Source: a virus
Length of the DNA stretch: 20,876 nt
IMG/VR virus record: IMGVR_UViG_3300030119_000104
Span: 1-20,876 of that record
Direction: 5' to 3' (one strand)
Positions 14,213 to 17,595 of the stretch are shown piece by piece. The stretch's first letter is position 1. Each line of letters opens with the position of its first letter. A model generated the notes under the pieces. The model was not told the DNA's origin, did no database searches, and saw only the letters and a list, made by a program, of their open reading frames with translations. Both the position numbers and the translations under genes were made by a program.

Positions 14213-14371
14213 ATGGCTAAACGAGGATTATACGCAAACATCCACGCCAAACGTAAGCGTATCAAAGCTGGTTCTGGTGAAAAGATGAGAAAACCAGGAA
14301 GCAAAGGAGCTCCCACGGCTGCTAACTTTAAACGTGCAGCAAAAACCGCAAAAAAACGTAAGAAAAAATGA
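14213..14371 (+). CDS. Small basic protein, 52 aa (MAKRGLYANIHAKRKRI type)
   Basis: A 52-residue protein starting MAKRGLYANIHAKRKRIKAG, followed by SGEKMRKPGSKGAPTA and a lysine-rich end (KTAKKRKKK). The RGLYANIxAKRKRIxxGSGEKMRKPGxKGAPT pattern is widespread in tailed phages, usually beside structural genes. The function is unknown to me. It starts immediately after the previous stop and its TGA shares ATGA with the hli start, so it is coupled to the photosynthesis cassette. Confidence 0.8.
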   Translation: MAKRGLYANIHAKRKRIKAGSGEKMRKPGSKGAPTAANFKRAAKTAKKRKKK

Positions 14372-14499
14372 CACACAACCACAACAATGACAAATGGCAC
14401 ATAGCTGAAGAGCTCAATGGTCGCCTTGCAATGATAGGAGTAGTAGCTGCTATAGGTACGTACTTCTTTACAGGTCAGATTATACCTGGAATTTTGTAA
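14368..14499 (+). CDS. hli: High-light-inducible protein (one-helix chlorophyll-binding)
   Basis: A 43-residue Hli/Scp protein. The chlorophyll-binding helix is AEELNGRLAMIGVVAAIGTYFFTG (spread over residues 13-36), with the family signature ExxNGRxAMxG. The Glu and the Asn in this motif ligate chlorophyll in Hlips. The protein inserts once in the thylakoid membrane and protects photosystem II or newly made D1 against excess light. The N-terminus is short and His/Asn-rich (MTHNHNNDKWH), so it is a minimal phage form. It shares ATGA with the preceding gene and lies 76 bases before psbA, the usual pairing in cyanophages. Confidence 0.93.
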   Translation: MTHNHNNDKWHIAEELNGRLAMIGVVAAIGTYFFTGQIIPGIL

Positions 14500-14504
14500 T
14501 CAAC

Positions 14505-14543
14505 ATGCTCCCATAAGAGGTCGGCTCTAGCTGGTGGGAGCAT
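14505..14543 (+). promoter_or_regulatory. Structured psbA 5' leader hairpin (possible PhotoRC-type element)
   Basis: The 76-base gap between hli and psbA holds a perfect 9-bp stem: ATGCTCCCA at 14505-14513 pairs with TGGGAGCAT at 14535-14543. Inside the 21-base loop AGAG (14516-14519) can pair with CTCT (14525-14528). No T-run follows, so it is not an ordinary intrinsic terminator. The rest of the leader (14544-14575) is AT-rich, runs directly to the psbA ATG and has no Shine-Dalgarno sequence. PhotoRC-I and PhotoRC-II RNA motifs have been described before psbA genes of cyanobacteria and cyanophages. Position fits, but I cannot confirm the match. It could also be a processing or stability element that protects the psbA mRNA. 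Confidence 0.6.
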
Positions 14544-14575
14544 TATAACCTCGTACACTTTACATATTTATACAC

Positions 14576-15634
14576 ATGGCTGCAATCTCATTACAAAGAG
14601 AAACAACCAATAAGTGGCAAGAGTTATGTAAGTGGGTTACAAGCACAGACAACAGACTATACGTTGGTTGGTTTGGTGTACTTATGATCCCTGCATTACT
14701 TACAGCTGCAACCTGTTTTATTATCGCCTTTATAGCTGCTCCACCTGTTGACATAGACGGGATACGTGAACCAGTTTCTGGCTCTCTACTCTATGGAAAC
14801 AACATCATCTCTGGGGCAATCGTCCCGTCATCAAACGCAATCGGTCTGCACTTCTACCCAATCTGGGAGGCTGCAACCATTGACGAATGGCTCTACAATG
14901 GTGGGCCATACCAACTTATCATATTCCATTTCCTCATCGGTGTCTCTGCTTATATGGGACGACAATGGGAACTTAGTTACAGATTAGGTATGAGACCTTG
15001 GATAGCAGTAGCATACTCAGCTCCAGTCTCAGCAGCCTTTGCTGTATTTCTTGTCTACCCTTTCGGGCAGGGGAGTTTCAGTGATGGTATGCCTCTCGGT
15101 ATTTCTGGTACTTTTAATTTCATGTTTGTATTCCAAGCCGAACACAATATCCTTATGCACCCGTTCCATATGCTCGGTGTTCTTGGGGTATTCGGTGGTT
15201 CTCTTGCCTCTGCTATGCACGGAAGTCTTGTTACTTCTTCTCTTATTAAAGAGACAACTGCATTGGAAGCTCAGAACTATGGTTACAAATTTGGACAGGA
15301 AGAGGAGACATATAACATCGTTGCAGCTCACGGCTACTTCGGACGTTTACTTTTCCAATATGCAAGTTTTAACAATTCTCGCTCTCTACACTTCTTTCTG
15401 GCTGTTCTCCCCGTGGTTGGTATATGGTTTACCTCGATGGGTATAGCTACTATGGCATTTAACCTAAATGGTTTCAACTTCAACCAGTCAGTTGTTGACG
15501 CTAACGGTAAGGTTATCCCCACATGGGCTGACATAGTTAATAGACAAAACCTTGGATTCGAGGTAATGCACGAGCGTAATGCTCACAACTTCCCTCTTGA
15601 CTTGGCATGTATTGAGTCTACAGAAATTGCTTAA
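14576..15634 (+). CDS. psbA: Photosystem II reaction-centre protein D1
   Basis: A 352-residue D1 with standard numbering and no gaps through Ala344. Key residues are present: Tyr161 (TyrZ), Asp170, Glu189, His190, His332, Glu333, His337 and Asp342 for the manganese cluster and donor side; His118 and His198 for chlorophyll; His215 and His272 for iron; Ser264 and Phe255 at the QB site. Residue 130 is Gln, as in the D1:1 form. Phage D1 replaces photodamaged host D1 so that light energy remains available during infection. The tail after Ala344 is only eight residues (CIESTEIA), about half the usual cyanobacterial extension, and starts with Cys. It lies in the thylakoid membrane. Its stop overlaps the likely ndhI start. 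Confidence 0.97.
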
Positions 15635-16124
15635 TTTTATAAAAGATACAATAGACTCTGCAAAATATTTATTGCAGGGTCTTTCTGTAACTTTAAGTCA
15701 TATGGGTAGAAGACCTATTACAGTTCAATACCCTTATGAAAAACTCATACCCTCAACACAATACAGAGGAAGAATACACTATGAGTTTGATAAGTGCATA
15801 GCATGTGAAGTTTGCGTTCGAGTATGTCCGATAAATTTACCAGTAGTTGATTGGGTAATGAATAAGGAAACAAAGAAAAAAGAATTAAGGAATTATTCTA
15901 TTGACTTTGGGGCTTGTATATTTTGTGGTAATTGCGTTGAGTATTGCCCTACTAATTGCTTATCAATGACTGAAGAATATGAATTGGCTACATTTGACAG
16001 ACACACTCTTAATTTTGATAACATCGCTCTTGGACGACTTCCCACTAATGTTACAAGTGATCCCACAGTTAGATCATTACGTGAACTCGGTTATCTTTCC
16101 AAGGGTGTTATGGATCCTCACTAA
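15627..16124 (+). CDS. ndhI: NDH-1 subunit I, two [4Fe-4S] ferredoxin-type protein
   Basis: This is NdhI of the photosynthetic NDH-1 complex, which takes electrons from ferredoxin and passes them towards plastoquinone in cyclic electron flow around photosystem I. It has the [15 protein letters not shown] segment, then two complete cluster motifs: [12 protein letters not shown] and [12 protein letters not shown]. These are followed by [17 protein letters not shown] and [15 protein letters not shown]. Identity to cyanobacterial NdhI is obvious by eye. It stops near residue 165, whereas the host protein continues about 25-30 residues. I prefer TTG 15627, giving the usual N-terminal helix ([17 protein letters not shown]) and an 8-base overlap with psbA. 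TTG 15612 or ATG 15579 would only add residues inside psbA. No ribosome site decides. Confidence 0.92.
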
Positions 16125-16128
16125 ACCA

Positions 16129-16189
16129 CGTCCGTTCATCCTTCGGGACGCATGCAATCAGATCATGGAACGGGGGTCTGATACTGGAG
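16129..16189 (+). promoter_or_regulatory. Candidate glutamine-II (Downstream-peptide) riboswitch
   Basis: Between ndhI and a 16-codon frame lies a compact pseudoknot. Stem 1: CCGTTC (16132-16137) with GAACGG (16168-16173). Inside it a TCC-TTCG-GGA hairpin (16139-16148) has a UUCG tetraloop. The pseudoknot stem is ATCAGA (16157-16162) with TCTGAT (16177-16182), interleaved with stem 1. The CGTTCATCC...GGGACGCATG...GGAACG core is what I recall of the Downstream-peptide motif of marine cyanobacteria and cyanophages, a glutamine-binding RNA related to the glnA motif. A competing stem exists: CGTCC (16129-16133) with GGACG (16146-16150). The Shine-Dalgarno GGAG (16186-16189) lies just past the pseudoknot, so ligand binding could change access to it. 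Confidence 0.82.
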
Positions 16190-16195
16190 ATCATT

Positions 16196-16246
16196 ATGAC
16201 ACTCAAGTATCGTGGCGTTGAGTACACACCAATTAAGAAAAAGTAA
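16196..16246 (+). CDS. Riboswitch-linked 16-residue peptide (YRG-x-x-Y type)
   Basis: ATG 16196 follows GGAG (16186-16189) at 6 bases and encodes MTLKYRGVEYTPIKKK before TAA 16244-16246. The LxYRGVxY core resembles the start of small cyanobacterial DUF4278-type proteins and the short peptides placed after Downstream-peptide riboswitches. The location right behind the pseudoknot makes translation likely despite the length. In Synechocystis, a glnA-type glutamine riboswitch controls a small protein that inhibits glutamine synthetase. Whether this phage peptide acts on nitrogen enzymes is unknown. It is basic at the C-terminus and has no membrane segment. Confidence 0.7.
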   Translation: MTLKYRGVEYTPIKKK

Positions 16247-16257
16247 TTCGTAAAAGC

Positions 16258-16287
16258 GAGTGGGAAGGTGCGAACCCTTCCCTACTT
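16258..16287 (+). other. Long RNA hairpin in the capsid leader
   Basis: GGGAAGG (16262-16268) and CCTTCCC (16276-16282) form a perfect 7-bp stem with a 7-base loop (TGCGAAC). Four more pairs (16258-16261 with 16284-16287) extend it past one bulged T at 16283. There is no T-run, so a Rho-independent terminator is unlikely. It may be an RNA processing or stability element before the capsid gene; T7 has RNase III sites in comparable places. Confidence 0.5.
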
Positions 16288-16425
16288 ATTGGCATCAGCC
16301 TCTACGGAGATACCTAATGCCGTCATGACGGTGGGATAGACCACAACATCAGTATGAGTCTTAACTGAAACAAATAAGATTCCTATAAAACTAGATCTAG
16401 GAACGATAATTAATACCTTATAAAA
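16288..16425 (+). other. Rest of capsid-gene leader, structured, no gene seen
   Basis: No reading frame of useful length is present. Several small structures can be drawn: GGCAT (16291-16295) with ATGCC (16317-16321) enclosing a CTC-TACG-GAG hairpin (16300-16309); a 12-base palindrome CCGTCATGACGG (16320-16331); and a 10-base palindrome CTAGATCTAG near 16390. The last 35 bases before the capsid ATG are AT-rich and lack a Shine-Dalgarno sequence. A phage promoter for the capsid gene probably lies in this region, but I cannot identify its sequence. Confidence 0.45.
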
Positions 16426-17595
16426 ATGGCACAACAGTCAACAAATAACCCAGCTTCACAAACCTTTCTGGGTAGAATAAATACAGCTACAAACGCTACA
16501 AATAACAGAGACCTTTATTTAAAGTTGTTCTCAGGTGAGATGTTTACTGGCTTCCAAAGGGAAACAATCGCACGTGACCTAGTCATGAAGCGTACGTTAA
16601 CCAACGGAAAGAGTTTACAGTTCATCTATACTGGTCGCACAAGTGCGGAATACCACACACCTGGAAACAGTATATTAGGAAACTCTGACAAAACTCCTCC
16701 AGTAGCAGAAAAAACAATTACAGTCGATGACCTATTAATTAGCTCGGCTTTTGTGTATGAGCTAGATGAGACACTAGCACACTATGAATTGAGAGGAGAA
16801 ATCTCTAAGAAGATCGGTTACGCACTTGCACAAAAGTACGATAGACTAATCTTCAGAGCTATTGCTAAAGGTGCTAGACAGGCATCTCCAGTATCACTAA
16901 CCAACTTCGTTGAGCCAGGTGGTACACAAATTCAAGTTGGTGCGGGTTCTAACGCAGACGATGCTCTTGATTCAACTAAATTAGTTACAGCTTTCTATGA
17001 TGCTGCAGCTGCTTTAGATGAAAAAGGGGTGAGTGATGACGGAAGAGTGGCCGTATTAAACCCTAGGCAATATTATTCCCTCATACAAGAGGCAGGCTCT
17101 AACGGCTTGATTAACAGAGATGTACAAGGTACAGCTTTACAGAGTGGAAATGGCGTAATTGAAATTGCAGGTATCAAAATCTTCAAATCAATGAACGTTC
17201 CATTCTTCAGTAAGTATGGTACTAAGTATGCACCTGCATCTAGCCCATCAGCTGCTACTGACCTTGATACAGTAGATCCTGGAAATACAGGTTCATTCGT
17301 ATCTGAAGCTATTGAAACAGCTACAACAGTTACAGGTAACAACTATGGCCCACGCCAGAACTACGGTGCTGCCTCTAACTTTGCAAACACATGTGGATTA
17401 ATCTTCCAAAGAGAAGCTGCAGGTGTTGTTGAAACTATTGGCCCACAAGTTCAAGTAACTTCTGGGGATGTTTCTGTAGTTTACCAAGGTGATGTCATCC
17501 TAGGAAGACTCGCTATGGGTGCAGACTACGTGAACCCAGCAGCTTGTGTAGAATTGTTCGCTGGAACAACTACAAAGCCAGCTGCTTTCTCATAA
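16426..17595 (+). CDS. Major capsid protein, T7 gp10-like
   Basis: A 389-residue capsid protein of the T7 gp10A type (345 aa), with the HK97 shell fold. Family segments include LKLFSGEMFTGFQRETIARD near residues 32-51, the GKSLQFIYTGRTSAEYHTPGN region that matches T7 GKSAQFPVLGRTQAAYLAPGE, and TITVDDLLISSAFVYELDETLAHYELR (T7 ITIDGLLTADVLIYDIEDAMNHYDVR). A Gly/Ser/Thr-rich insert near residues 270-305 (SSPSAATDLDTVDPGNTGS) may be a surface loop. It should be the most abundant virion protein. It is preceded by a structured leader and followed by a strong terminator. The scaffold gene is 2.6 kb upstream instead of adjacent because of the photosynthesis and small-gene insert. Confidence 0.95.
   Translation: MAQQSTNNPASQTFLGRINTATNATNNRDLYLKLFSGEMFTGFQRETIARDLVMKRTLTNGKSLQFIYTGRTSAEYHTPGNSILGNSDKTPPVAEKTITVDDLLISSAFVYELDETLAHYELRGEISKKIGYALAQKYDRLIFRAIAKGARQASPVSLTNFVEPGGTQIQVGAGSNADDALDSTKLVTAFYDAAAALDEKGVSDDGRVAVLNPRQYYSLIQEAGSNGLINRDVQGTALQSGNGVIEIAGIKIFKSMNVPFFSKYGTKYAPASSPSAATDLDTVDPGNTGSFVSEAIETATTVTGNNYGPRQNYGAASNFANTCGLIFQREAAGVVETIGPQVQVTSGDVSVVYQGDVILGRLAMGADYVNPAACVELFAGTTTKPAAFS

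Follow-up and report, generated by a model that had tools for sequence, protein, structure and literature searches.

A Glutamine-II riboswitch and a short YRG peptide frame ahead of the major capsid gene in a T7-like marine cyanophage fragment and most of its relatives

Introduction

The hosts of cyanopodoviruses are the most abundant photosynthetic cells in the ocean, on whose nitrogen these phages depend. What would an RNA of a glutamine-sensing family do among the structural and photosynthesis genes of such a phage? The question is raised by a 20,876-base virus fragment from IMG/VR, which was analysed over its whole length and is called the window here. An earlier note, made from the sequence alone, had proposed that this DNA carries a Glutamine-II (Downstream-peptide) riboswitch followed by a Shine-Dalgarno sequence and an uncharacterised short peptide within a late operon, and had drawn a parallel with a small inhibitor of glutamine synthetase.

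The Downstream-peptide motif was listed for cyanobacteria and marine samples by Weinberg 2010 (PMC2864571). We found no description of Glutamine-II RNAs in T7-like cyanophages or cyanopodoviruses in the literature searched, which lies largely outside subscription journals. Public descriptions of the motif mention one phage, and finding it in a phage is probably no novelty by itself. Its breadth among phages, its fixed position and the comparison of the peptides appear to be new.

Results

The window has the gene order of T7-like marine cyanophages: RNA polymerase, primase/helicase, DNA polymerase, ribonucleotide reductase, portal, scaffold, psbA, ndhI, major capsid and tail tube. The names of capsid, psbA and the 4Fe-4S protein come from Pfam, and the others were given by reading of ORFs and synteny with annotated cyanopodoviruses. 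Judged by this order, the succession of portal, scaffold, psbA, ndhI, riboswitch, capsid and tail would agree with the proposed late operon. A scan that does not cover phage promoters found no sigma-70-like promoter on the + strand in 14300-16500, so that read-through from upstream is likely. The features discussed are collected in Table 1.

Table 1. Coordinates of the features discussed, as positions in the window
Feature	Position	Strand	Basis or remark
psbA (photosystem II D1)	14576..15634	+	Pfam Photo_RC, 295 bits
ndhI (NDH-1 subunit I, 4Fe-4S), upstream neighbour of the riboswitch	15627..16124	+	proposed TTG start overlaps psbA stop
Glutamine-II (Downstream-peptide) riboswitch aptamer	16130..16182	+	Rfam RF01704, 54.7 bits; covariation in 45 phage homologues
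P2 pseudoknot, 5' strand CCGUUC	16132..16137	+	pairs with 16168-16173, 6 bp; sequence
P1 hairpin UCC-UUCG-GGA	16139..16148	+	16139-16141/16146-16148, UUCG loop 16142-16145; sequence
P3, 5' strand AUCAGA	16157..16162	+	pairs with 16177-16182, 6 bp; extra U16163-G16176
P2 pseudoknot, 3' strand GAACGG	16168..16173	+	sequence
P3, 3' strand UCUGAU	16177..16182	+	sequence
Shine-Dalgarno GGAG of the peptide ORF	16186..16189	+	3 nt past P3; 6-nt spacer to ATG 16196
16-residue ORF MTLKYRGVEYTPIKKK, one DUF4278-type YRG unit	16196..16246	+	translation; TAA 16244-16246
7-bp hairpin with 7-nt T-loop-like loop (GGGAAGG-TGCGAAC-CCTTCCC)	16262..16282	+	similar hairpins in relatives
Candidate structured RNA (R1), leader of the major capsid gene	16288..16347	+	model R1, 76 bits; covarying helices; no Rfam family
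Major capsid protein	16426..17595	+	Pfam Gp10A-like, 237 bits; no Shine-Dalgarno

The photosynthesis-related region has some further features. The ndhI gene lies immediately 3' of psbA in this T7-like cyanophage; T7-like genes were seen at 7 of 80 IMG/VR ndhI loci, and the ndhI matches in annotated phages belong to the large cyanophages P-TIM40 and P-TIM68. An unlisted small ORF at 14369-14500 has the hli-like motif ELNGRLAMIG and probably encodes a high-light-inducible protein. Small Lys/Arg-rich ORFs, one of them DUF6321, lie 5' of it from about 13818.

When the whole window was searched with cmscan against 4227 Rfam families, RF01704 was matched over model positions 1-60 of 60 with an E-value of 5.8e-11 and a score well above the gathering cut-off of 33, which supports the family named in the earlier note. 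None of the other families reached its own cut-off, and the glnA riboswitch (RF01739) gave no match in the window up to E 10. The two interleaved 6-bp helices and the UUCG hairpin that had been described are present. In 45 distinct phage homologues, 97.5% of the pair cells were kept versus 83.5% in shuffled alignments, a level reached in 0 of 500 shuffles. All ten variable pairs, namely the four counted pairs of P1 and the six of P3, showed double-sided changes, while the five counted pairs of P2 (CGUUC/GAACG) were invariant in the 45 distinct sequences, so that covariation speaks neither for nor against P2. The Shine-Dalgarno sequence also lies behind the aptamer as had been proposed; the predicted duplex with the anti-Shine-Dalgarno sequence is -6.4 kcal/mol for the peptide ORF versus +2.9 for the capsid gene.

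Purifying selection acts on the YRG peptide frame. Over 42 distinct homologous codon blocks, pN/pS was 0.44 in frame, the other frames gave 1.15 and 1.46, and only 2 of 200 column-shuffled alignments were as low. The Y, R, G and second Y are invariant over these blocks, with their codons changing synonymously. The short YRGVxY peptide that had been read 3' of the Shine-Dalgarno sequence is upheld as a conserved reading frame. In a first set of 58 distinct phage riboswitches, every one is followed by a YRG ORF, whose start lies 23-32 nt past the GAACG strand with one exception, S-TIP37, to which an inner start was assigned; it falls within the range as well if the in-frame ATG (MSDLEKRY...) 25 nt past that strand is taken. 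By our own estimate from codon frequencies, a YRGxxY-like string would arise by chance at less than 1% per site.

There are two main forms of the phage peptide: a short form of 13-18 residues, to which that of the window belongs, and a long form, mostly of 33-38 residues, which has an N-terminal stretch such as MTQVELQARLKEQKDHARAM ahead of KLKYRG. A helix is predicted before YRG in the long relatives, in which no Pfam family besides DUF4278 (PF14105) is above its cut-off; for a 33-residue form, AlphaFold gave a helix at residues 3-24 and a YRG tail (pLDDT 80). The locus L004 encodes a capsid protein 98% identical to that of the window and a peptide of the long form, so that close relatives differ in having or lacking the N-terminal part. 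The L004 peptide matches DUF4278 with 30.5 bits (Pfam cut-off, 25.3), and the peptide of the window, tested with an artificial alanine tail, scored 17.3 against the same cut-off. A Pfam match of an artificially doubled peptide was discarded, and single copies were scored instead. The peptide that the earlier note called uncharacterised has relatives: its YRG unit resembles that of DUF4278, and hosts have two to three such units behind RF01704.

In searches of whole records, 17 of 19 cyanopodoviruses had RF01704 above the cut-off, in one copy and 5' of the major capsid gene. The copy in S-SBP1 is degenerate (19.6 bits), and none was found in the record of S-B28. In P-SSP2, P-SSP3, P-SSP7, P-SSP10, NATL1A-7 and others, comparable DNA, mostly unannotated, is found in the interval from the psbA region to the capsid gene; the YRG ORF of P-SSP7 has 17 residues. 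Of 39 IMG/VR capsid loci that had 1.2 kb or more of upstream sequence, 31 showed the motif by a strict pattern; Rfam added L047, and altered forms were recognized by eye in L071, L076 and L078. Among the matches listed of a phage-form pattern scan of IMG/VR, which overlaps the first set, a YRG ORF lay 3' at 139 of 139 testable sites; five more were too close to a contig end, and one (L415) was spurious and rejected. A phage contig with psbA, the riboswitch, MTVTLKYRGVSYTKTK and the capsid gene was found in AG-363-M21, an infected Prochlorococcus single cell. The riboswitch is at the same position in most of the cyanopodoviruses searched, and is no curiosity of one phage.

Some related loci depart from the common form. 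In the variants L071, L076, L077, L078 and L175, P1 is altered and the 5' strand appears inside the upstream gene; they are mostly below the Rfam cut-off and retain the YRG ORF. In another related phage, a group I intron (RF00028, 99.9 bits; L085:1499-1728) lies just before the capsid-gene match begins.

Glutamine-II sites were found in 13 of 16 picocyanobacterial genomes examined, with 1-7 sites each, and none was found in the other three, which are records of Cyanobium or Synechococcus that do not belong to the Prochlorococcus set. Prochlorococcus hosts carry the RF01704 aptamer before DUF4278 genes. The link that had been drawn between host nitrogen sensing and the phage element stands. One candidate host locus (L281, on G004 contig C15) turned out to be the phage contig of the infected single cell described above and was excluded from the host evidence. 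Those host ORFs behind Glutamine-II that were read (MTLIYRGQKYVQNKEAAKKQHNELTYRGKAYTS and similar) match DUF4278, mostly with two or three YRG units. AlphaFold gave three hairpins, one per YRG unit, for a 57-residue host protein, with low confidence (pLDDT 63). No meaningful relative of the host DUF4278 protein was found in the PDB, where only a chain at E 1.5 was returned. Since the phage has one YRG unit and the hosts two or three, the phage module looks, from the sequences, like a trimmed copy of the one in hosts.

A candidate structured RNA, R1, lies between the peptide ORF and the capsid gene. Model R1, a 62-position RNA element, was significant with one copy in each of 20 phage records and weak in S-TIP28. 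A pattern scan gave 120 testable sites, and at every one of them the element preceded the capsid gene, by a median of 66 nt. Its hairpin with a mostly UACG loop showed strong covariation. The enclosing helix also covaries, with 88.4% of cells paired versus 62.1% in shuffled alignments when the hairpin is included; the hairpins of the model are favoured by an alignment fitted in part to it, and the enclosing helix is outside the model. The third hairpin is nearly invariant, and its version in S-RIP1 is rewritten but still pairable. The stretch had no match among the 4227 Rfam families in cmscan, and R1 was absent from 12 of 13 genomes of the Prochlorococcus set, the exception being the phage contig of the infected single cell. 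Since the capsid gene lacks a Shine-Dalgarno sequence, in the window as at 32 related loci, it is natural to suppose that R1 may act in capsid translation or mRNA stability.

The DNA around R1 has other small structures. Short palindromes such as CTAGATCTAG lie between R1 and the capsid start codon. On the other side of R1, the place of the 7-bp hairpin is taken in relatives by a hairpin of the same T-loop-like type, by one of the GGGAGCACCTCAGAGTCGGACTCCC type, or, in NATL1A-7, by a tRNA-Gly. This hairpin was rejected as a terminator, the tail on the + strand being TACTTATTGG with no proper T run. It was also rejected as part of a tRNA or tmRNA, for the only gene of either kind that ARAGORN reported, over the window and the relatives, was the tRNA-Gly of NATL1A-7.

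Discussion

What does the riboswitch regulate, and in which direction? We consider it fairly probable that it controls translation of the YRG peptide, that translation is ON with glutamine, and that the peptide touches a nitrogen-regulatory partner in the host. By analogy with host systems, high glutamine in the infected cell, a sign of nitrogen sufficiency, would stabilise the pseudoknotted aptamer, and the stabilised aptamer would let more of the peptide be translated, in the way reported for type-2 glutamine riboswitches of hosts. The single-unit DUF4278-type peptide, given its kinship with the two- and three-unit proteins of the hosts, may contact their nitrogen-regulatory partner. The phage would thereby read and adjust nitrogen metabolism to fuel protein synthesis.

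In hosts, selective binding of L-glutamine by Glutamine-II has been shown for Synechococcus CC9902 (PMC6316151). Expression of PMM1846, a host gene behind an RNA of the Glutamine-II type, goes up in nitrogen excess (PMC6316151), and for this reason we prefer the ON direction. Folding did not discriminate: between free and aptamer-constrained folds of 58 phage leaders there was no consistent change, the mean unpaired probability of the Shine-Dalgarno sequence being 0.34 and 0.33, respectively, in the folding model. As the model relieves no sequestration of the Shine-Dalgarno sequence, the direction is taken from the host analogy only. The distance from P3 to the Shine-Dalgarno sequence is 2-4 nt in most phages versus mostly 6-8 nt in host Yfr6-type genes, and with this shorter distance the sign could be inverted: the glutamine-stabilised P3/P2, stacked against the Shine-Dalgarno sequence, would block the 30S subunit, and the peptide would be made when glutamine falls. 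We regard this as rather unlikely; host members are reported to be higher in nitrogen excess (PMC6316151), and the folding model shows no sequestration switch either way.

The place of the element suggests another explanation, in which the riboswitch and ORF are a leader that tunes the capsid gene through coupling, polarity or mRNA stability and the peptide product is irrelevant. It would agree with the single copy per record in the interval 5' of the capsid gene, with the lack of a Shine-Dalgarno sequence in that gene, and with the result of the + strand scan for sigma-70-like promoters, which found none between. In several phages, however, intervening ORFs put 0.5-1.1 kb between the riboswitch and the capsid gene, and the peptide is still 23-32 nt behind the aptamer. 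Moreover, the riboswitch and the YRG ORF are absent together from L021, L042 and S-B28, and both S-B28 and L021 keep the capsid gene and its leader RNA without them. Because the peptide stays while the capsid gene moves, and because riboswitch and peptide are missing jointly, the riboswitch is tied to the peptide and not to the capsid gene. Since the peptide is also under purifying selection across divergent phages, we think a pure capsid leader improbable.

An effect of the YRG peptide on nitrogen control is plausible by analogy, and one form of it would be direct inhibition of glutamine synthetase. IF17 has DUF4278 and lies under a glutamine riboswitch (PMC6316151), and to this extent the parallel drawn in the earlier note has a basis. 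However, DUF4278 is only the N-terminal part of IF17, which stabilises the protein and is dispensable for its function (PMC6316151), and the phage ORF is a DUF4278-like unit only. The parallel is weak for this reason, as the segment in common is the dispensable one. As read, the ORF stops after one YRG unit and would lack an IF7-like inhibitory part. IF-mediated control had also been excluded for marine picocyanobacteria, with divergent inhibitors such as PMM1846 left open (PMC6316151). We do not think that the peptide acts on glutamine synthetase as IF7 or IF17 does. A single unit of 16 residues looks a poor candidate, and direct inhibition of the enzyme is very improbable.

A broader scheme is put forward more tentatively. 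A host-derived glutamine sensor may dose a one-unit DUF4278 micro-peptide that competes with or imitates the multi-unit YRG proteins of the host and so resets nitrogen signalling in infection, and the adjacent structured RNA may offset the missing Shine-Dalgarno sequence of the capsid gene. The riboswitch and micro-peptide are unannotated in P-SSP7 and in most of the phage records read, and they are retained in most of the lineage. P-SSP7 with Prochlorococcus MED4 and S-TIP37 with Synechococcus WH8109 are ready models for metabolite sensing by phages, and the one-unit version of DUF4278 might teach the function of the host DUF4278 family.

Glutamine riboswitches borne by phages are known from other systems. 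That of the methylophage Melnitz is described as glnA-like and lies at ssrA, in the tmRNA region (PMC9004378). T4-like cyanophages also have a phage-borne glutamine riboswitch, S-CREM1 being described with a glnA RNA (PMC9602691, PMC9964418). Among protein families, the long phage versions of 33-38 residues match PHROG 5049 (47 positions, function unknown) weakly, with a best E-value of 0.00025. The YRGxxY unit is held in common with DUF4278 (PF14105) at the N-terminus of IF17, whereas the peptide of the window has one unit in 16 residues and no IF7-like part. A close likeness is to the Yfr6-type ORFs with RF01704 in Prochlorococcus and Synechococcus, which share the P1/P2/P3 layout, the core CGUUCA...CGCA...CAUGGAACGGGG and a YRG ORF 23-32 nt downstream. 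The phage aptamers differ from them in having mostly CGCAUG, where the hosts have CGCAG or CGCAA. They also have a shorter joining region, a closer Shine-Dalgarno sequence, and a single YRG unit in place of two or three.
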